From Candidatus Xiphinematobacter sp. (lineage in GTDB: Bacteria > Verrucomicrobiota > Verrucomicrobiia > Chthoniobacterales > Xiphinematobacteraceae): a stretch of 64,000 nucleotides of DNA. The stretch spans positions 492,673-556,672 of the forward strand of contig CP068473.1 of the NCBI GenBank assembly GCA_016766635.1, written 5' to 3'. Under the pieces are notes generated by a model. That model was not told the origin of the DNA and ran no database searches. It worked only from the letters and a program-made list of their open reading frames with translations. A program made the position numbers and the translations under genes. Shown here in pieces: positions 53,378-64,000 of the stretch; the stretch's first letter is position 1; each line of letters begins with the position of its first letter.

Positions 53378-54514
53378 TTACCGTAGCCTCAGGATGGCTA
53401 GCCCGAGTAGGGAAAATAGGACCGACATTATCCAAAATCGGACAATAACAGTACTTTCCTTCCAGCCACAGAGCTCAAAGTGGTGATGTAGTGGGGACAT
53501 TTTAATAAGGCGTCTTCCACTAAGTTTAAAGCTTGCCACCTGAAGAATGACCGACAACGTCTCTATGACAAAGGTTCCCCCGACAATGACAAGAAGAAGC
53601 TCTTGTTTGCAGCAGATGGCAGTTATTCCAAGAACCCCCCCCATGGCAAGAGAACCTGTGTCCCCCATAAACATATAAGCGGGATGGCAGTTCCACCAAA
53701 GGAAACCAAGACAGGAGCCAAATAGAGCCATGCAAAGCACACTCAATTCTCCGGAGCAAGGGACGAACGGAACTCGTAAGTAGGAGGCAATTTTGCAATC
53801 TCCGGCAACGTAGGATAGAATCCCGTAGGAAGCTGCTACGGTAGCTGTGCAACCAACGGCCAATCCATCCAATCCATCTGTAAGATTCACAGCATTAGAA
53901 GCTCCCACGATAACTAGTGGGTAGATACAAAAGGCAAGCCATCCAAGGTGGAGAATAATTGGATCCCTGAAGAAGGGAAGATGGATATAGAGCTGTTGGA
54001 AAAGCGTGTTCGACTGAGGACCAAGGAGCAAAAAGAGAATCACGGCCGCGGAGAGTAGACACTGTAGTCCGAACTTAAAGCGGCTGCTAATACCAGTGGA
54101 AGAACGGTGGATAACCTTCAGGTAATCGTCCACAAATCCCAAAGAGGCTAAATAAATCATGGAAAGAATGACCAACCACACAAAGGGATTTGGAAGACGA
54201 GCCCAAAGCAGGGAGGAGGTAATAGTGGCACCCAGTGGAAGGATCCCTCCCATTGTGGGAGTGCCTCTCTTTTCCCTATGTAATTCAAACAATTTATGAG
54301 TCTCCCCCTGGGTGCGGATAGGTTGATCAAATCCGAGGGAAATAAGTTGGCGAACGACAAGATTTCCAAAAATTAGGGATAGGAGAAAAGCTGTGATAGA
54401 GGCACCAACGGCACGGAAAGTGATGTCTTGAAAGGCATGAAATTCCTTAAGAAGATTCCACTCAATGCCGCGCATTCTTGCCCACTCGCTAATTCCGAAG
54501 AAATAGTAAAGCAT
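53378..54514 (-). CDS. mraY: Phospho-MurNAc-pentapeptide transferase
   Basis: MraY attaches phospho-MurNAc-pentapeptide to undecaprenyl phosphate, making lipid I. From the ATG at 54512-54514 it has 378 residues and about ten membrane helices. Motifs are GTPTMGG, the catalytic FVDDYLKV, NLTDGLDGLA, the MGDTGSLAMGG loop and the terminal KMSPLHHHFELCGW His-rich segment. The frame opens earlier at a TTG inside murF (54535), but MLYYFFGISEW matches the family N-terminus. The start is 7 bases past the murF stop. Confidence 0.96.
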   Translation of the reverse strand: MLYYFFGISEWARMRGIEWNLLKEFHAFQDITFRAVGASITAFLLSLIFGNLVVRQLISLGFDQPIRTQGETHKLFELHREKRGTPTMGGILPLGATITSSLLWARLPNPFVWLVILSMIYLASLGFVDDYLKVIHRSSTGISSRFKFGLQCLLSAAVILFLLLGPQSNTLFQQLYIHLPFFRDPIILHLGWLAFCIYPLVIVGASNAVNLTDGLDGLAVGCTATVAASYGILSYVAGDCKIASYLRVPFVPCSGELSVLCMALFGSCLGFLWWNCHPAYMFMGDTGSLAMGGVLGITAICCKQELLLVIVGGTFVIETLSVILQVASFKLSGRRLIKMSPLHHHFELCGWKESTVIVRFWIMSVLFSLLGLAILRLR

Positions 54515-54521
54515 GGACTGG

Positions 54522-55883
54522 CTAGTACTGCTCAATGATGCGGCTCATGCATGCTGAATTACTTCCTTTGACCAAGACCATATCTCCAGGACTTGTTATG
54601 CTGCCTAGGAATTCTGCTGCGGCAGAAGTGTCCGAAATGTGGAAGACTTTTCGCACCCCTCCCTTTTTTGCCGCCTCGACAAGCGGTAGAGTTTCTTCCC
54701 CAACCGCTACCAGAGCATCTATAAGGGATACTGCTGCCGCTTGGGCTATTTTTTGATATCCCCTCTTCGCATAGGTCCCCAACTCATCCATTTTTCCAAG
54801 GATGGCAAAGCGACGACCCTTACATGGGGTTTCAGAGAGAGCATTAAGGGCGGCTACCATTGAATCTGGATTAGCATTATAGCCGTCATCTAGGAATTGA
54901 ACATTGCGCCTGACTTGCAGTTGTGGGCGACAGTGCAGTAGAGGAGCACGACTCAGTTCCTTCGCCCCTTCAGGAATGGAAATGCCTAGCTCAAGACCAA
55001 CCGCCAGGGCGAATAGGGCGCCCATTACTATGTGTCTTCCAGGAAGACTTAATGTAACGGAAGCGCGCTGTCCAAAACTGTGTGCGATAAAGCGGGTCCC
55101 GTTGGAAAGAACTTCAATATTTGAAGCAGTGACTGAACCAGAGCTTAATCCGACAAAAAGAGTGCGGATTGGTGAGGAGGAAGCCAGTTTTTCAGAAAAA
55201 TCGTCTTCCGCGGGAAGAATTAGCGTGCCGTCTGGCGCAATTTGGTGGATCAGGTTCTCTTTCTCTGCTGCAATTGCCTCGCGCGACCCCATATTTGCGA
55301 TATGGGCAACTCCAATATTGGTGATAATGCCGATCTGAGGGCGAGCCAGTTTGGCCAATGGAAGGATTTCCCCGCGGTGGTTCATGCCAATTTCCCAAAC
55401 TGCTACATTGTGAGCAGAAGAAGTAGCCAGAATACTAAGCGGTAACCCGATATGGTTGTTGAGATTACCCTGTGTGTGTGAAACAGTGAGCCGTCTCTCT
55501 AGGACTCTGGAAGTGAGTTCCTTGGTGGTTGTCTTGCCGTTGCTTCCGGTAATACAAACTACTCTTGGCGTGATCCTACCTCGCCAACTTTTAGCGAGAT
55601 GCTGTAGCGCTACTAGCGAATTTGGAACGAGAATGACAGCCAGCTTGGAGTTGACGGGTAGTGCGAAAGAGGATTCCGCGATTACAGCACTGGCACCACG
55701 TGCTTCCGCTTGAGCTAGAAACTGGTTTCCGTCAAAGCGGGCACCACGTAATGCAATGTAGATATCGCCTGGTTGCAGTATACGGGTGTCTTTAGAAAGT
55801 CGACTGACAAGACACTGGGGGTTTCCCCTTAGCAGCACACCCCCGCACATCTCTGCGACTTCTCTGACAGTACAGGTGTCCAT
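54522..55883 (-). CDS. murF: UDP-MurNAc-tripeptide--D-Ala-D-Ala ligase
   Basis: MurF adds the D-Ala-D-Ala made by Ddl. The 453-residue protein has the N-terminal uridine-binding domain (DTRILQPGDIYIALRG), the P-loop GSNGKTTT (about 109-116), AVWEIGMNHRGEI, and the C-terminal domain with DDGYNANPDSM and ILGKMDELG. The ATG lies one base past the murE stop; the frame extends 11 codons further up into murE. It is transcribed between murE and mraY. Confidence 0.96.
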   Translation of the reverse strand: MDTCTVREVAEMCGGVLLRGNPQCLVSRLSKDTRILQPGDIYIALRGARFDGNQFLAQAEARGASAVIAESSFALPVNSKLAVILVPNSLVALQHLAKSWRGRITPRVVCITGSNGKTTTKELTSRVLERRLTVSHTQGNLNNHIGLPLSILATSSAHNVAVWEIGMNHRGEILPLAKLARPQIGIITNIGVAHIANMGSREAIAAEKENLIHQIAPDGTLILPAEDDFSEKLASSSPIRTLFVGLSSGSVTASNIEVLSNGTRFIAHSFGQRASVTLSLPGRHIVMGALFALAVGLELGISIPEGAKELSRAPLLHCRPQLQVRRNVQFLDDGYNANPDSMVAALNALSETPCKGRRFAILGKMDELGTYAKRGYQKIAQAAAVSLIDALVAVGEETLPLVEAAKKGGVRKVFHISDTSAAAEFLGSITSPGDMVLVKGSNSACMSRIIEQY

Positions 55884-55884
55884 T

Positions 55885-57351
55885 TCAAAGCCCCACTGGT
55901 TTTTCTGCAATGGCACGTGCAGCTACTTCCACGTCGTCGAATGGCATTTTCTGGCTAGAAAATTCCTGGGTCTTTTCGTGACCCCTACCTGCAACAAGCA
56001 CAATGTCACCTGCTTGCGCTATGGAGACAGCACGGTAGATAGCGGCTTCTCTATCGGTAATGCATTCATAGTGCTTGTTAAAAAATCCACCTCTAATCTC
56101 TGCGATAATAGTCTCTGGATCTTCTTCACGTGGGTTATCCGATGTCACAATAGTCCAGTCTGCCATCTCGCCTGCAATACGAGCCATGAGTGGACGCTTA
56201 GAACTGTCACGGTTCCCGCCGCAGCCAAAGACGACGATAAGTCGAGATGGATGAAGTGTTTGTAAGGTTCGGAGAGCGTTTGCCAGGGCATCAGCAGTAT
56301 GAGCATAATCAACAAACACTTGGAAGCTACGCTTCGCCGGTACACGTTCTAACCTACCTGGTATTTGAGGCATAGATGCCAAGGCAGCTACTGCTGAGCG
56401 AAGTTCTGTACCCATAGCGCTGGCGGCAGATAATGCAGCAAGGGAATTGTAAACGTTAAACGTACCAATCAAAGGAAGGCGAACCAAGTAGCTGCGTCCA
56501 CGTGCTTCTAGCTGATAGGTCGTACCGGTGGTGTCGGAACGTATGCTTAGAGCACGAAAGTCTGCCCCTACACCTAGTCCATAACGAATGATGGGGATGT
56601 GCTGCAGTCGCTCCATTAGCAAACGTCCGTAGCGATCATCACAATTAATAATTGCCTTAGCACGCTTGGTTTGAGTAGGAAGGTTCTTGAAAAATTCGGC
56701 CTTGGCACTGAAGTATGCTTCCATATTCCCATGGAAATCCAAGTGGTCCGGAGTAAGATTGGTAAATACGAAAGTCTCAAACTCTACGGTATGCAACCTA
56801 TGAAGAATGCTGGCATGGCTAGAAGCCTCCAGCGCACAGGCGCGTAAGCCATAGTTACGCATATGAGCAAGCATTTCTTGTATATCCGAAGATTCTGGGG
56901 TAGTTCTCACGGCTTCTAGTGTGCCGCCTCCCATGTCATAAACGACGCTTCCAATAAGCCCACAGGGTAATCGAGTGCCTGAGCAAATATGCCGAATTAG
57001 AAAAGTAGTAGTGGTCTTACCGTTGGTACCTGTTACTCCAGCCACCTTAAGAGAGGAAGAAGGGTTGGAATAGAACATGGAGGCAATCTCCGCCAAGGAA
57101 AACCTAGGATTCTCCACACGAACTACCGGCACTGACAGCTCCAGCTGTTTAGAGGTTACAATGGCGACTGCTCCATTCTTTATGGCCTCCCCTGCAAATG
57201 AGGCACCGTCCAATTTCTCACCTTGCAGAGCAAAGAAAAGCGCTCCGGGGTTTGTTCGGCGCGAATCATAAGAAATCGAGGCAATTTTCGGGTCAAAATT
57301 GCTGGATATGGCCTGCACTCTTGTCGCAGGAAGGAGTCTACTCAGTTTCAT
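55885..57351 (-). CDS. murE: UDP-MurNAc-tripeptide synthetase (meso-DAP adding)
   Basis: MurE adds the third stem amino acid. The 488-residue protein has the N-terminal DSRRTNPGALFFALQG segment, P-loop GTNGKTTT (about 108-115), NLTPDHLDFHG, and DNPREEDP (about 404-411). The DNPR form is typical of enzymes using meso-diaminopimelate rather than lysine. The carbamylated Lys segment is also present (YFSAKAEFF). The ATG overlaps the ftsI stop by 4 bases. Confidence 0.96.
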   Translation of the reverse strand: MKLSRLLPATRVQAISSNFDPKIASISYDSRRTNPGALFFALQGEKLDGASFAGEAIKNGAVAIVTSKQLELSVPVVRVENPRFSLAEIASMFYSNPSSSLKVAGVTGTNGKTTTTFLIRHICSGTRLPCGLIGSVVYDMGGGTLEAVRTTPESSDIQEMLAHMRNYGLRACALEASSHASILHRLHTVEFETFVFTNLTPDHLDFHGNMEAYFSAKAEFFKNLPTQTKRAKAIINCDDRYGRLLMERLQHIPIIRYGLGVGADFRALSIRSDTTGTTYQLEARGRSYLVRLPLIGTFNVYNSLAALSAASAMGTELRSAVAALASMPQIPGRLERVPAKRSFQVFVDYAHTADALANALRTLQTLHPSRLIVVFGCGGNRDSSKRPLMARIAGEMADWTIVTSDNPREEDPETIIAEIRGGFFNKHYECITDREAAIYRAVSIAQAGDIVLVAGRGHEKTQEFSSQKMPFDDVEVAARAIAEKPVGL

Positions 57352-59117
57352 CGCATTGAGTTAAGCCCTGCCTGACTCTTTTGTAGAGGACTCAATGGGT
57401 GACCTCTCTTGATGATGGAGAGAGGGGGCAAGCCCATGTAGCGAGCTGTTCTCTCTGCAATGCGGGAAAAGATGGGAGCAGATACCAGCCCCCCATAAGC
57501 CATACTGGAGGGCACTTTGGCATCATCTACCACGACTAGGCAAACGAATTGTGGATCCTTTCTCGGGAGGAAGCCGGCGAAAGAAGCGACGTAGCGTCCC
57601 TTATGATATCCTCCCCTGTAATCTACCTTTTGGGCAGTTCCTGTTTTTCCGGCTACTTCAAAGCCGTTGACGCGTGCCTGCACTGCAGTCCCCCTGTGGC
57701 TTACTACCTCTGTTAGCGCATCCCCCATCGCTTTGGCTGTCTCTGAGGAGATCACTTGCCGAACAAAGTGAGGAGAAATGGTACTGACTGGTCTTCCTTC
57801 TCCATCAAGAAGTGCCTTTACAATGTGTGGAGCCATGAGTTTTCCCTCATTGGCAATAGCACTCATGGCAACGGTGAGCTGAAGGGGGGTGACGGCCACT
57901 TCATATCCCATGGGGATTCGGGTAATGCTCGTCTTGCTCCAACGATGTGGTGGATGGATAATCCCGCTAGCCTCACTAGGTAGCTCAACGCCTGTTCTAT
58001 CTCCAAATCCGAATTTCCGAATGTATCTGTACAGGCGCTGATTGCCCAATAAAAACGCTAGCTTGGCTGCACCGATGTTAGAGGACTTAACCAAAGTGTC
58101 GTGTACAGAAAGATATTCGTAAGCTTTGTGGTCCCTGAGGATGACTCCACCGTGGCAGAATTCGCCATTCTCACAAAAAATGGCGCTTGTCGGACGCACC
58201 AATCCTTCGTTCAGTACTCCAGAAGTAATGACGATCTTAAAGGTGGATCCTGGCTCTATCATATCCATGACGGCATAGTTCCTTAGCTGATTTGGAGTAG
58301 AAGCTCCCACACTGTTAGGATTAAACGTGGGACGGTTAGCCATGGCCAAGATTTCCCCAGTTTGGGGGCGTATCATGACGGAGCTGATATACGAAGCTTT
58401 GAGCTCGTGGTAAGCAGCATCCACTTCTTTTTCCACAATAGCCTGCAAGTTCGTGTCGATGGTGAGTTGGATATTAATCCCGTTGCGAGGGGGGTGCTCC
58501 TGCCCACGATAGATCACGATTTCTCTTCCGGTACGGTCCCGTTCAATAAGGCGAAATCCGTTTTTACCTTCCAGGTAGGCTGCCATGGAAGCCTCCAGGC
58601 CTTGTACGCCTTGTCCTCTATGGTCCAAAAATCCTAGCACTTGGGAAAGCAACTCCCCATTAGGGTAAACGCGCTGTAGCTCTTGTTCAAAGGACAAACC
58701 ACGCAGTGAAGTCTTCCGTAATTCCTTCATTAAGGCTCTAGCTCGGTCTTCAGGAAATTTTCTTTTGACCACCACATACTTGCGCTCCGTTCTAAGTCTC
58801 GGGAGAAGTTCTTCAACAGGAATTGAAAGGAAGGGAGCGGCACACCTTGCCAGCGCATTTGCATCTCTGATTAAGGAACCGTCTGCCACAACTGTTTTTA
58901 GCGGAAGATTAGCAGCTAGAATCTCCTTATTAGCATCGAGAATAAGTCCACGACGAGCGTGGAGAATTTGGCGAATGGAGTGTTTCTGTGCAGCCAAGGC
59001 TGTAAATTCGTGGTACTTGGTAATCTGGACATAGGCCAATTGGATGGAGTATCCGGTGAGAATCAAGGAAAGCCCAATTCCTGCCCAAGCTATACGAATC
59101 TGTACATTCTGTCTCAC
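57348..59117 (-). CDS. ftsI: Septal transpeptidase FtsI (class B penicillin-binding protein)
   Basis: FtsI cross-links septal peptidoglycan as FtsW's partner. The 589-residue protein has an N-terminal membrane helix (about 8-30), the pedestal domain (including the RGLILDANKEILA segment) and the transpeptidase domain. Its active-site motifs are GSTFK near 290, SSN near 342 (VKSSNIG) and KTGTAQ near 490. The PASTA repeats seen in some orthologs are missing. The GTG start overlaps the ftsL stop by 4 bases (GTGA), and it runs straight into murE. Confidence 0.95.
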   Translation of the reverse strand: MRQNVQIRIAWAGIGLSLILTGYSIQLAYVQITKYHEFTALAAQKHSIRQILHARRGLILDANKEILAANLPLKTVVADGSLIRDANALARCAAPFLSIPVEELLPRLRTERKYVVVKRKFPEDRARALMKELRKTSLRGLSFEQELQRVYPNGELLSQVLGFLDHRGQGVQGLEASMAAYLEGKNGFRLIERDRTGREIVIYRGQEHPPRNGINIQLTIDTNLQAIVEKEVDAAYHELKASYISSVMIRPQTGEILAMANRPTFNPNSVGASTPNQLRNYAVMDMIEPGSTFKIVITSGVLNEGLVRPTSAIFCENGEFCHGGVILRDHKAYEYLSVHDTLVKSSNIGAAKLAFLLGNQRLYRYIRKFGFGDRTGVELPSEASGIIHPPHRWSKTSITRIPMGYEVAVTPLQLTVAMSAIANEGKLMAPHIVKALLDGEGRPVSTISPHFVRQVISSETAKAMGDALTEVVSHRGTAVQARVNGFEVAGKTGTAQKVDYRGGYHKGRYVASFAGFLPRKDPQFVCLVVVDDAKVPSSMAYGGLVSAPIFSRIAERTARYMGLPPLSIIKRGHPLSPLQKSQAGLNSMR

Positions 59118-59467
59118 TGGTGTAACTCCCTGTTAAGGGCGGTCCTCATATCGTCGCGTGCAATTTCCGGAACAATTAGGTGAGCAACGTATCGATCCTG
59201 GATCGTTTGCATAAAAATAGCCATCGATTCTAGCTTTTTTTGGATAGCAGAACGTGAGGAGAGTGTAGCAATTTCAGCCAGCAGCACTTGATTGCTTATG
59301 TGTGTCTCGTAAAGATTTTTCTCGAGCCTCCGAATATTTTGCCCAAGTTGAAATTGCTGGTTTTTTAGATAGACCACTTGCAACCCAACTCCCCCTAGAA
59401 TAAGTGCAATCAAAGTCCACCGGAAAATGGGGCGTGGTTCAATGGAATTTCTGCTTTCTGTATTCAT
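59114..59467 (-). CDS. ftsL: FtsL-like bitopic division protein
   Basis: The 117-residue product has a short cytoplasmic N-terminus, one membrane helix (about 16-34) and a predicted coiled coil (about 38-75, with LGQNIRRLEKNLYE). This is the pattern of FtsL, which bridges FtsQ and FtsB to FtsW-FtsI. Sequence similarity is weak in this family, so the call rests on size, topology and position between rsmH and ftsI. The ATG overlaps the rsmH stop by 4 bases. Confidence 0.75.
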   Translation of the reverse strand: MNTESRNSIEPRPIFRWTLIALILGGVGLQVVYLKNQQFQLGQNIRRLEKNLYETHISNQVLLAEIATLSSRSAIQKKLESMAIFMQTIQDRYVAHLIVPEIARDDMRTALNRELHQ

Positions 59468-60468
59468 CGGTCCCCTTGCATCCCTAGGATGCTCTCAACA
59501 ACACGCAACTTAGCGCTACTAGCCCTAGGATTATTACGGACCTCCTCCTTGCTTGCCTTGATGGGACGAGGAGTGAGGAGTCTAAAGATGCGTTGCGGAT
59601 TCGGACGTGGGGCAGGCCAAGTGAGACAATGGATCCATTTCATGCTCCCTCTCCGGAAGAAATGTTTTACTATACGGTCTTCTAGTGAATGGAAGGTAAT
59701 TACGGTAAAGCGTGCTCCGTAGGAAAGATGGGAGGAGATGGCACTGAGGCCTTCCTGCAGAGCCCCTAATTCGTCATTGACTGCTATACGTAAGGCTTGG
59801 AATACCCGTGTTACTGGCCGGCGTAAGTCGTGGCGATATCGAGGAGAGACAACAGATTTGACGATGGAAACAAGATCGAGGGTTGTGCTGATGGGGCGGC
59901 GGGTGCGCAGTGCGACAAGACGAGAGGCGATGCGAAAAGCGTGAGGCTCTTGACCATATTCATAGAAAATGTGAGCAAGCTCCGAGAGACTAGCTGTATT
60001 GACAATATCCGCCGCTGAGATAGGAGTAAGGGGATCCATCCGCATGTCGAGCGGCCCATTTTTAAGGATGGAAAATCCGCGGTTTGGAGTTTCTAGTTGG
60101 TGAGAGGACACACCCACATCTAAGATAGCACCGTCCAGCCCGCACACATCCAGGGAACAAAGTATGTGGCGGATCCTTCTGAAGTTGTCCTGAACGATGC
60201 GGATGCGCGGTCCGTAGTAAACGAGCCGCTCCTTAGCGTAAGTGATTGCTTCAGGGTCTTGATCCACAGCGATAACGGAAGCTCCATTCCGGAGTAAGCT
60301 GGAGCTGTGTCCCCCCCCTCCTAGTGTGCCGTCCAAAATGAGTGTCTTGGGAGATGGTTGAAGGTAGTTGACTACCTCATTAACTAGTATGGGGGTATGG
60401 TAAACACCGCCATTATACCCTTCCGGCCCCGCACGGTGGTGTGGGCAGTCTGAGAAAAATGCATGCAT
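59464..60468 (-). CDS. rsmH: 16S rRNA (cytosine(1402)-N4)-methyltransferase RsmH
   Basis: RsmH (MraW) methylates C1402 of 16S rRNA and is the usual first or second gene of dcw clusters. The 334-residue protein has HTPILVNEVV, the SAM-binding LDGTLGGGGHS loop (about 44-54), ILDVGVSSHQL, RVFQALRIAVNDEL and FHSLEDRIVKHFF. MraZ, the regulator normally encoded ahead of it, is absent. The short spacer to rsmA (60469-60573) is open in frame with rsmH, so a non-ATG upstream start cannot be excluded, though the ATG fits best. Confidence 0.94.
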   Translation of the reverse strand: MHAFFSDCPHHRAGPEGYNGGVYHTPILVNEVVNYLQPSPKTLILDGTLGGGGHSSSLLRNGASVIAVDQDPEAITYAKERLVYYGPRIRIVQDNFRRIRHILCSLDVCGLDGAILDVGVSSHQLETPNRGFSILKNGPLDMRMDPLTPISAADIVNTASLSELAHIFYEYGQEPHAFRIASRLVALRTRRPISTTLDLVSIVKSVVSPRYRHDLRRPVTRVFQALRIAVNDELGALQEGLSAISSHLSYGARFTVITFHSLEDRIVKHFFRRGSMKWIHCLTWPAPRPNPQRIFRLLTPRPIKASKEEVRNNPRASSAKLRVVESILGMQGDR

Positions 60469-60573
60469 TGGGTTCGCTTTTGTGGGAACGACGGCTACAG
60501 AAACCAGGAGGCGTTTCTTAGAATTTTCGAGATGGTCCTGTACAAATCCCAGCGGGAGTTTAGCAATGAAAAA

Positions 60574-61905
60574 CTAGTGATCGTTAACTATTAAATCAAA
60601 GCACTGTAAGAACGTTGTAGTAAACGACCCTGGCTCTTTCCGAATCCACCTTTGGATGGTCTCCTCTTCAAAAAAGGCCCCAATATCAATCTCCATGGGC
60701 GTGAGAGAAAAAGGTCCCTCTTGTTGGGTAAAAAAAACTTCAATGAATTCCCATCCCGTTTCTGCAGAGGCTTGTAGGCTGCCTTTTTTCAAAAGCCAGT
60801 CACATCTCGTGACTCCTAATTCCTCGCATAGCTCCCTGCGCGCAGCAATCTCATAGCCTTCCCCAGACAGGAGATGTCCTGCGACGCTAGAATCCCACTT
60901 ACCTGGGTTGCTATCCTTCCAAATGGATCTCCTTTGCAAAAACCATTTGCCAACCCTATTCCGTATCAGAACATGCACGGATCGATGTGGAAGGTTTTCC
61001 GTGTGGATCTCCGCGCGTGGCACCCGAGTTACCACTCGATTCTGGAAATCTACAACATCAAGCTCCTCTGCGCGCGCGGCCATAGTTTGGGGACGGAATG
61101 GACTAAGCCGGCAAGCCAGCTCTGCGTAATCGGCATGGGAGAGTTCTTCTGCCCGTGCAAGGGGAGAGATTCCCATCTCTTCAGCAAATTTTTCCCACAC
61201 ACCTTTCGTGTTCCCCAGCAACTTTCGCAATTGCTTCCTGCGCTCGGAGAATCCGAGGTACACTATCCTTTCAAAAAGGGCCTCATCACAGAAATGGACA
61301 ACCTCTCGTGGTGTGAAAAGGATAATGGACGAATGCACCCTGGGTTTTGGATAAAAAACACTAGGTGAGAGGTTGCGCAGGAGTTGTATCTTCCAGCGAT
61401 GCTGGATACAGACCGTCATTATTCCATATTCTCTAGTGTGCGGGGCTGCAACTAGTCGCTCTGCTAATTCCCTTTGCACAGCAAAAACCAGCCGAATTGC
61501 TGGTGAGAGCTTATTGAGAAACCGCATAAGGATGGGAGAGGATACATAATAGGGTAAATTCCCGATGACTTTTACCCGTCCGAATCCGTAAAATCTGAGG
61601 AGATCAACACGTGTCGCATCCTCCTGGATGACATGGAGAGTATTTCCTAATCTCTGAACTAATGCACCCGCAAGACGGCCATCCTTCTCTACCACGGTTA
61701 TTCGTCCCACTCCAGCCTGCATCAAATATTCCGTGAGAGCACCTAACCCTGGACCTAATTCCACCACGTGGTCTCCGTGATCTAGAGAGAGCCTTGACAC
61801 CATCCATCGCGCGAGATTTTGATCATGCAGGAAGTTTTGCCCCAAGCTTTTTGCGGGTTCCAGGGCCAGCTTCCTAAGACAGTCTCGTACCTCTTTGAGG
61901 GTCAT
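60574..61905 (-). CDS. rsmA: RsmA (KsgA) 16S rRNA dimethyltransferase fused to a Nudix hydrolase domain
   Basis: Residues 1-272 are a complete RsmA, which dimethylates two adenines near the 16S rRNA 3' end. It shows KSLGQNFLHD (19-28), the SAM loop ELGPGLGALTEY and the catalytic NLPYY (116-120). After a short linker, residues about 278-443 form a Nudix domain. Its box (343-365) fits Gx5Ex7RExxEExGx in full, with REL and EELG. The domain is of the kind with VVDFQNRVVTRVPR and HVLIRN, related to isopentenyl-diphosphate isomerase/YfcD-like proteins. The reading frame is uninterrupted, so this is a fusion rather than two genes. It lies upstream of rsmH on the same strand. Confidence 0.92.
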   Translation of the reverse strand: MTLKEVRDCLRKLALEPAKSLGQNFLHDQNLARWMVSRLSLDHGDHVVELGPGLGALTEYLMQAGVGRITVVEKDGRLAGALVQRLGNTLHVIQEDATRVDLLRFYGFGRVKVIGNLPYYVSSPILMRFLNKLSPAIRLVFAVQRELAERLVAAPHTREYGIMTVCIQHRWKIQLLRNLSPSVFYPKPRVHSSIILFTPREVVHFCDEALFERIVYLGFSERRKQLRKLLGNTKGVWEKFAEEMGISPLARAEELSHADYAELACRLSPFRPQTMAARAEELDVVDFQNRVVTRVPRAEIHTENLPHRSVHVLIRNRVGKWFLQRRSIWKDSNPGKWDSSVAGHLLSGEGYEIAARRELCEELGVTRCDWLLKKGSLQASAETGWEFIEVFFTQQEGPFSLTPMEIDIGAFFEEETIQRWIRKEPGSFTTTFLQCFDLIVNDH

Positions 61906-62015
61906 CGAACCTATTTCATCCTGTCAAGAATTCCTCTCCTTCTGGATCCATCTTCCGACTTTATTGAAAACGTTTCTTGTGAGCTGCGGGATTCCCTATT
62001 ATAGCATCCATCCTA

Positions 62016-62993
62016 ATGAACAAAGGTGGTCTTCTAGGCATTACGTTCCTCCTGCTGTTTTGCCTGAGCGTTTTCTTTAATATTTTTTTGCTGGTAGCTC
62101 TTACCGATAAAAAAGGGTTTTTCACTCTGGAAAAACGCTACCGTGAGACCGTCCTCTTACCAGGAGCGGAAAACGCAAAGATTGTACTCATTCCTCTTAT
62201 TGGAACTATCGGTTTTTCTCAATCCAATGCACTAGGCGACTCTATGGTAGATGATTTAAAGGAAGCTTTCCAGCAGGCAGCTAGCGACCCCGACGTTAAA
62301 GCCATTATAGTCTCTACGGATTCCCCAGGTGGAGAGGTAACGGCCTCCGATGTCCTTTACCATTCCCTGCGTAACCTTGCACAACAGAAGCCGGTTGTCT
62401 ACTATATCAACTCCATAGGAGCTTCCGGAGCTTACTACACTGCCTGTGGAGCCTCTTGGATTATGTGCAGCCCAACGACCTTCACGGGCAGTATTGGTGT
62501 GATAATTTCCGCTCTGAATTACCAGAAACTCTTCGGTAAAATCGGCCTGCAGTCTCTGGTTTTTAGAAGTGGAAAATTTAAGGATATGCTGAACCCAGCA
62601 AGGGAAATGGCCCCAGAAGAAAAGGCTTATGTCCAGGCACTCGTTGCGCAGACCTACAGGCGATTCGTACAAGTCGTTTCCTCTGCCAGGCACCTGACCC
62701 CTGAAGCTCTCTATAAGGGGGTCGCAGACGGTCGTATCCTCAGTGGAGAGGACGCTTACCGCGAAAGGCTTGTGGATAGCCTCGGCTATATTGAGGATGC
62801 CTATGCTAAGGCAAAAGAACTCGGTGGTGCCCCAGACGCCTCAGTTGTCAGTTACACAGCACAATTTTCTTTATCAACATTTTTGAGCAGACTCAGTCAA
62901 GGGATTACCCAAAAAGTCCAACTAAACTTTCTGCATGTTTTTGCGCTAGAACCTGGACGCTTCTATCTCCTACCCTCTATCCTGGTGCCTTAA
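62016..62993 (+). CDS. sppA: Signal peptide peptidase SppA (S49 family)
   Basis: SppA degrades cleaved signal peptides in the membrane. The 325-residue protein is the short form, with one N-terminal membrane helix (about 8-30) and a single S49 domain. The catalytic Ser137 is in IGASGAYY and Lys189 in SGKFKDML; STDSPGGEVTASD is also typical. The ATG at 62016 is the only good start. It is divergent from rsmA with about 110 bases between them. Confidence 0.93.
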   Translation: MNKGGLLGITFLLLFCLSVFFNIFLLVALTDKKGFFTLEKRYRETVLLPGAENAKIVLIPLIGTIGFSQSNALGDSMVDDLKEAFQQAASDPDVKAIIVSTDSPGGEVTASDVLYHSLRNLAQQKPVVYYINSIGASGAYYTACGASWIMCSPTTFTGSIGVIISALNYQKLFGKIGLQSLVFRSGKFKDMLNPAREMAPEEKAYVQALVAQTYRRFVQVVSSARHLTPEALYKGVADGRILSGEDAYRERLVDSLGYIEDAYAKAKELGGAPDASVVSYTAQFSLSTFLSRLSQGITQKVQLNFLHVFALEPGRFYLLPSILVP

Positions 62994-63157
62994 CCCTCAC
63001 CAACACACCGGTCCAGTGGGTCCTGACTGGTAGTGGTGTTGCTACTGTTGTATGTGCCGCCGTGGTTTTTTAGAATGTGCATATCGAGGCTACCATTTTT
63101 CATTTCATGATTTTAATTTTCTTCTCTGGCGGCAGTTTTTGATTCTTATGTGCACTT

Positions 63158-64000
63158 GTGAATGTTGCCTTCCTTCGAGAGATTCTTCAATACATCCCCC
63201 AATTCTGGGAACGAATATTTGTGATCTCAGTTGATGGTTCGGTCGCTGGATCTGAAAATTTCTCCAACATCCTTTTGGATTTGGCTGTCCTGCGTTCCTT
63301 AAGTATCAAGGTGATCCTTGTACACGGCGCCAGCGTCCAGACTGAACGCCTGGCGAGCAAATATAAGGTCAAACTTTCTAGCTCTAGTGGAATCGGAGTA
63401 ACAGACGTGGCTTCCTTGCAGGTAAGCATTGATGCGGCAATGCGACTCACCAGTGAGATCATGCAAGGATTGTCTGCTGTGGACTTACGGGTCGCTTATG
63501 TCAACGCTATTACAGCCCATTCAGCAGGAATTCTTGGTGGAAAAGACTATCAGTTTACAGGACGTGTAGAGCGCGTAGACAGTAAGGTGTTGGACTTGCT
63601 TCTAAGGGAAGATATCATTCCGATACTGCCCCCACTAGGATTTGATGGAGAGGGCCACACTTACCGAGTAAATTCTGACGCGATTGCTGTTGAAGTAGCT
63701 GGAGAACTTCAGGCGGCGAAAGTTATCTTTCTAGCCTCTGCTGCCGCTTTCGAGCCAAAAGTCCAACTGCCCAAGCAGATTTCCGCCTCGGAATCAGAAG
63801 AACTCGTTATACGTCATCAAACCTACTGGCCCTCTAATTTAATTTCCAAACTGGATAGTGCATCTCGCGCATGTCGGCAGGGGATATCACGGGTACACAT
63901 TCTAAATGGGGGTGTGAACGGGGCACTGCTTAAGGAAGTTTTTAGTAACGAAGGGTTTGGTACCATGGTACACTCGGACGAATATCAGCAGGTCCGCGGA
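63158..64000 (+). CDS. argA: N-acetylglutamate synthase, amino-acid kinase-like domain (3' end cut off)
   Basis: Reading from the GTG at 63158 gives 281 open codons to the window edge. The product starts LREILQYIPQFWERIFV and contains the amino-acid-kinase features VILVHGAS, RVNSDAIAVEVAGELQAAKV and RVHILNGGVNGALLKEVFSNEGFGT. These are typical of ArgA-type proteins, whose C-terminal GNAT domain would lie beyond the edge. The role would be the first step of arginine synthesis. An in-frame TGA at 63140-63142 limits the start to this GTG or codons just before it; no Shine-Dalgarno is seen. Confidence 0.82.
   Translation, partial: MNVAFLREILQYIPQFWERIFVISVDGSVAGSENFSNILLDLAVLRSLSIKVILVHGASVQTERLASKYKVKLSSSSGIGVTDVASLQVSIDAAMRLTSEIMQGLSAVDLRVAYVNAITAHSAGILGGKDYQFTGRVERVDSKVLDLLLREDIIPILPPLGFDGEGHTYRVNSDAIAVEVAGELQAAKVIFLASAAAFEPKVQLPKQISASESEELVIRHQTYWPSNLISKLDSASRACRQGISRVHILNGGVNGALLKEVFSNEGFGTMVHSDEYQQVRG

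Follow-up and report, generated by a model that had tools for sequence, protein, structure and literature searches.

A gene fusion joining RsmA to a YfcD/DR_0079-group Nudix domain, retained in a small symbiont genome and common among its verrucomicrobial relatives

Background

Few RNA-modifying enzymes are as highly conserved as RsmA (KsgA), which is normally a stand-alone protein. It serves as a late checkpoint of the 30S subunit (PMC13246957). The E. coli protein also has a reported DNA glycosylase activity, and mutation is suppressed via its C-terminal H2TH-like region (PMC10091538). Among Nudix proteins related to the domain described below, DR_0079 of D. radiodurans is reported to prefer CDP (listed in PMC5158307).

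A combination of RsmA and Nudix domains is not unseen, because an Akkermansia 'Dimethyladenosine transferase' of 450 aa appears in a 2013 table with the domains 'ksgA, NUDIX hydrolase' (PMC3861447). That entry has the architecture and length class of the fusion reported here. It serves there as annotation for a salt-tolerance clone, and the accompanying passage neither remarks on the architecture nor tests it. Searches of the literature combining KsgA, Nudix and fusion, or RsmA, Nudix and Verrucomicrobia, returned nothing, with most subscription papers and all preprints lying outside their coverage. The architecture therefore appears to be known as an uncommented annotation from 2013, and no dedicated study of it was found.

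Results and discussion

A single frame encodes RsmA and a Nudix domain

The window is a 64,000-nucleotide stretch of the Candidatus Xiphinematobacter sp. contig CP068473.1. Its fused gene and the parts of that gene are as follows.

60574..61905, minus strand: rsmA-nudix fused gene, with an ATG start, 443 aa and no internal stop; full-length orthologues occur throughout the order
61090..61905, minus strand: RsmA/KsgA half, residues 1-272 (Pfam RrnaAD at 19-264), placed by TIGR00755, Pfam and Foldseek
61069..61113, minus strand: linker, residues 265-279, placed by the junction alignment and the AlphaFold model
60577..61068, minus strand: Nudix half, residues 280-443, YfcD/DR_0079-like, placed by profile comparison with the PDB
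60811..60879, minus strand: Nudix box, residues 343-365, plus the invariant H344, read from the sequence and near-invariant in 65 fused proteins

A first-pass annotation of this DNA had proposed that one frame joins a complete RsmA (residues 1-272) to a Nudix domain (about 278-443) with an intact box at 343-365, and the open reading frame, Pfam and NCBIfam all agree with it. Sequencing error and chance read-through are excluded, because about 50 genomes of the order, as well as separately sequenced named contigs, have an open frame across this same stretch. The YfcD-homologous domain begins at approximately residue 280, near the 278 given in the first-pass annotation. From one fused protein to another, the linker that precedes it differs in both length and sequence, and it is the part of the AlphaFold model with the lowest confidence (block mean pLDDT 66). 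An independent translation start for the Nudix half within the gene was rejected: the ATG at 61083 (codon 275) lacks a purine-rich ribosome site, and the codon specifies Val in the sister genome. No RNA families were found in an Rfam scan of 54000-64000, and a promoter and terminator scan gave signals no stronger than those of shuffled sequences.

The RsmA half

The N-terminal half is a full-length RsmA that scores above the curated equivalog cut-off (TIGR00755, NCBIfam ksgA; 218.9 bits against 171, residues 16-264) and matches Pfam RrnaAD at 6e-42 over residues 19-264. It carries the motifs GQNFL, ExGPGxG, NLPY and FxPxP. Within the SAM and NLPY motifs, residues E49, G51, G53, G55 and N116-Y119 are invariant in 65 fused proteins. 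KsgA structures are the nearest in fold, with B. subtilis KsgA (6ift, 1.1e-24) as the best Foldseek match to this half. In contrast to RsmA/KsgA proteins, the fusion bears about 170 additional C-terminal residues, which form a second enzyme domain. The window genome is a complete single contig of 917,278 bp, and the fusion is its sole RsmA. Several residues are common to the fused lineages and rare in unfused RsmAs of the class, namely G115 before NLPY, W171, D101, Q225 and W237.

The Nudix half

Pfam NUDIX matches residues 306-375 (3.3e-13), and the best NCBIfam Nudix model is YfcD (residues 273-417). The box, G343-HLLSG-E349-GYEIAAR-R357-E358-L-C-E361-E362-L-G-V365, conforms exactly to GX5EX7REUXEEXGU. 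Residues H301, H307, H344, R357, E358, E361, E362 and E386 show no variation across 65 fused proteins, and the invariant Nudix residues, including H344, R357, E358, E361 and E362, extend to the unfused relatives that were compared (67/67). Loss of the key glutamates on realignment, which the first-pass annotation had named as grounds for doubt, is not seen: E358, E361 and E362 are kept in all 67 proteins.

Compared with the PDB, the profile of this half matches E. coli YfcD (2FKB, 1.9e-27), then DR_0079 (1Q27, 1e-21), then isopentenyl-diphosphate (IPP) isomerases at about 1e-16. The alignment with YfcD is end to end, including the N-terminal strand block and the Nudix box. However, the domain scores 73 bits against the curated cut-off of 152 of the YfcD equivalog (NF011922), so we assign it to the YfcD group and do not call it YfcD. 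It also differs from YfcD and DR_0079 in having GH, with a third conserved His, and in being joined to RsmA.

The IPP isomerases deserve consideration as an alternative identity, because similarity to them is detectable and the metal histidines typical of them (H301, H307, H344) are conserved. By score, the domain lies in the same branch of the Nudix clan as type 1 IPP isomerase, with metal His positions common to both. In contrast to that enzyme, the fusion has no catalytic Cys: the relevant position of SVCGH is Ala342 here and Ala, Ser or Gly in 67/67 proteins. Moreover, the isomerase model TIGR02150 gives 40 bits in a genome search, well below its cut-off of 105.8, and the Nudix box is complete and hydrolase-type, whereas the isomerase form is degenerate. 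With the cysteine missing and the scores so far under the isomerase cut-offs, we reject this identity as extremely improbable. By its residues and profile matches, the Nudix half is a hydrolase-type member of the isomerase-like branch.

Distribution among Verrucomicrobiota

The fusion is not confined to the symbiont: genomes of its order and of Akkermansia-type families carry it as a rule. Of 60 genomes sampled from the order, 56 have a full-length, uninterrupted fusion. In the remaining four, no RsmA exceeds the family cut-off, and the two halves are therefore missing together. In the class sample, the two domains share one protein in all 52 members of the family that includes Akkermansia (f15) and in 7/7 members of family f33. 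Three more families contain fusions: f14 (3/3), f35 (genome G142) and f27 (genome G228). Fused loci with named hosts are those of Chthoniobacter flavus Ellin428 (L148), Akkermansia sp. (L170, L173) and Verrucomicrobium sp. BvORR106 (L175).

The first-pass annotation had also asked whether relatives encode the Nudix half in a gene of its own next to rsmA. This is the case in other families of the class, where rsmA and nudix are either adjacent on the same strand, with rsmA first, or at distant loci. A 4-nucleotide ATGA overlap joins the adjacent genes in 7 of 18 examined pairs. Beyond the class, 60 genomes of the same phylum showed no rsmA-nudix adjacency. Similar Nudix genes of Plasticicumulans and a Chromatiales MAG were considered as further fusions and rejected, as they are stand-alone and far from rsmA.

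For six genomes of the order rated 91-96% complete (G004, G014, G016, G022, G049 and G279), no RsmA scored above the family cut-off, and two of the six belong to one family (f2). These absences could be assembly gaps or true losses.

History of the fusion

A tree of 67 rows, built on both halves, places the main fused group (the window's order, f15 and f33) on a single branch supported at 99%. Four changes are required to explain the fused state on this tree, a count that does not separate gain from loss. Placing all fused rows in one clade is rejected (p-AU 1.75e-8), so fusion probably occurred more than once, whereas one clade of the main group plus f14 is not rejected (p 0.48). The simplest reading of these sequences is probably at least two independent fusions of genes that were already adjacent. 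Two of the smaller fusions are represented by a single metagenome genome each. Because the junction in G228 differs from its neighbour's overlap by apparently one base, the G228 fusion could be an assembly error. The fusion as such is real and old, and has been retained even in a tiny symbiont genome.

Predicted structure and selection

AlphaFold models of the window protein (mean pLDDT 94.6, pTM 0.91) and of an Akkermansia protein that is 39% identical to it (mean pLDDT 93.3, pTM 0.89) are of high overall score. Because pTM is this high for a two-domain chain, the models suggest that the domains hold a defined mutual orientation as one body, although pTM is itself a prediction. The Foldseek matches listed are KsgA-type structures that span the first domain alone, and none of them has both domains.

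Both halves are under purifying selection. Between two Xiphinematobacter-like genomes, dN/dS (NG86) is 0.110/0.681 = 0.16 for the RsmA half and 0.130/0.657 = 0.20 for the Nudix half, and the latter is therefore not decaying baggage. The window genome (0.92 Mb) has only two NUDIX domains, that of the fusion and that of an RppH-like enzyme. No RelA_SpoT domain was found in this complete genome, whereas 11/14 controls have one, so the symbiont lacks a classical stringent response.

Possible functions

We favour, with a probability of about 0.55, a bifunctional enzyme with two active sites, in which the host's only RsmA is permanently joined to a Nudix hydrolase of the YfcD/DR_0079 group that is competent for catalysis. 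The N-terminal half would dimethylate two neighbouring adenines near the 3' end of 16S rRNA (A1518/A1519 in E. coli numbering) as a late step of 30S assembly. Its C-terminal partner would be a metal-dependent pyrophosphohydrolase for a small substrate of the nucleoside-diphosphate type, perhaps a di- or triphosphate of cytidine or another nucleoside by analogy with DR_0079. Two translationally coupled neighbours within the class probably gave rise to this protein by fusing, apparently more than once, and fusion would fix the halves at a ratio of 1:1 within one rigid body. We infer the two activities, the substrate, and selection for tethering rather than for co-expression alone. Retention of all expected catalytic residues in both halves of 65 fused proteins argues for this bifunctional enzyme, whereas the guess at the substrate leans on one distant homologue, DR_0079.

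The halves might instead be two independent enzymes that share a transcript, with fusion fixing their co-expression and no mechanistic link between methylation and Nudix chemistry. Neighbours with 4-nucleotide overlaps are one small step from fusion, and a stop codon separating two genes that overlap is readily lost, so fusion can recur without any physical cooperation. The surrounding gene neighbourhood is not conserved, and rsmA and nudix are unlinked outside the class and in several of its families, so linkage is not required. On the other hand, the fusion is essentially fixed across three families, seems to have arisen on more than one occasion, and is modelled as one rigid body in two lineages. 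We regard independent enzymes as possible but doubtful. A role in genome maintenance, in which the DNA binding and glycosylase/AP lyase activity reported for E. coli KsgA would be paired with a Nudix half that clears damaged nucleotides from the pool, seems quite unlikely to us. The Nudix half is attached exactly at the C-terminal H2TH-like region of KsgA, and the host has a MutY-like gene and, because its sole other NUDIX domain is RppH-like, no separate MutT. However, 8-oxo-dGTPases are not among the nearest Nudix relatives, the fusion has no repair genes beside it, and the glycosylase role is not known from more than a few reports by one group.

The first-pass annotation had suggested that the Nudix domain might clean up a by-product of methylation. 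This is not supported by established chemistry, because the by-product of RsmA is S-adenosylhomocysteine, which contains no pyrophosphate. A second suggestion of that annotation was that the fusion might couple ribosome maturation to nucleotide levels. Certain Nudix enzymes act on ppGpp- or RNA 5'-phosphate-type substrates, and this, together with the checkpoint role of KsgA in late 30S assembly, would fit a Nudix half that regulates assembly by sensing or degrading a signal such as ppGpp, or by trimming the 5' phosphate of pre-rRNA. We consider such a regulator very unlikely: hydrolysis of ppGpp is weakened as an explanation because the window genome lacks a RelA_SpoT domain, yet the Nudix active site is intact, and the genome already has an RppH-like enzyme of its own. 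Also improbable is a physically integrated, two-headed 30S-assembly enzyme whose Nudix head, by sensing or turning over a nucleotide, would gate the RsmA checkpoint. If it were true, a lineage of gut and soil bacteria that includes Akkermansia would tie ribosome maturation to nucleotide state, a coupling not described before.

An ancient, fixed and apparently recurrent fusion is strong genomic-context evidence of a functional link. It offers a way into what YfcD-type Nudix proteins do, and the link is approachable in cultured bacteria and in E. coli.

Neighbouring genes

The genes rsmH, ftsL, ftsI and murE directly follow the fusion gene on the same strand (55885-60468, minus). This run was rejected as a functional clue because the arrangement occurs only in the two Xiphinematobacter-like genomes; thus, it is probably a rearrangement that accompanied genome reduction. 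Divergent and upstream of the fusion lies a gene for an sppA-like signal peptide peptidase (62016-62993, plus), an arrangement common to the nearest relatives only. In families with adjacent genes (L213, L214, L217-L222, L224 and related loci), the order is queE, class-III aminotransferase, rsmA, nudix. The overlap of the aminotransferase gene and rsmA in G228 is also ATGA. Elsewhere in the window genome (G000), a MutY-like protein (351-aa frame) is kept at C1:861447-862214.
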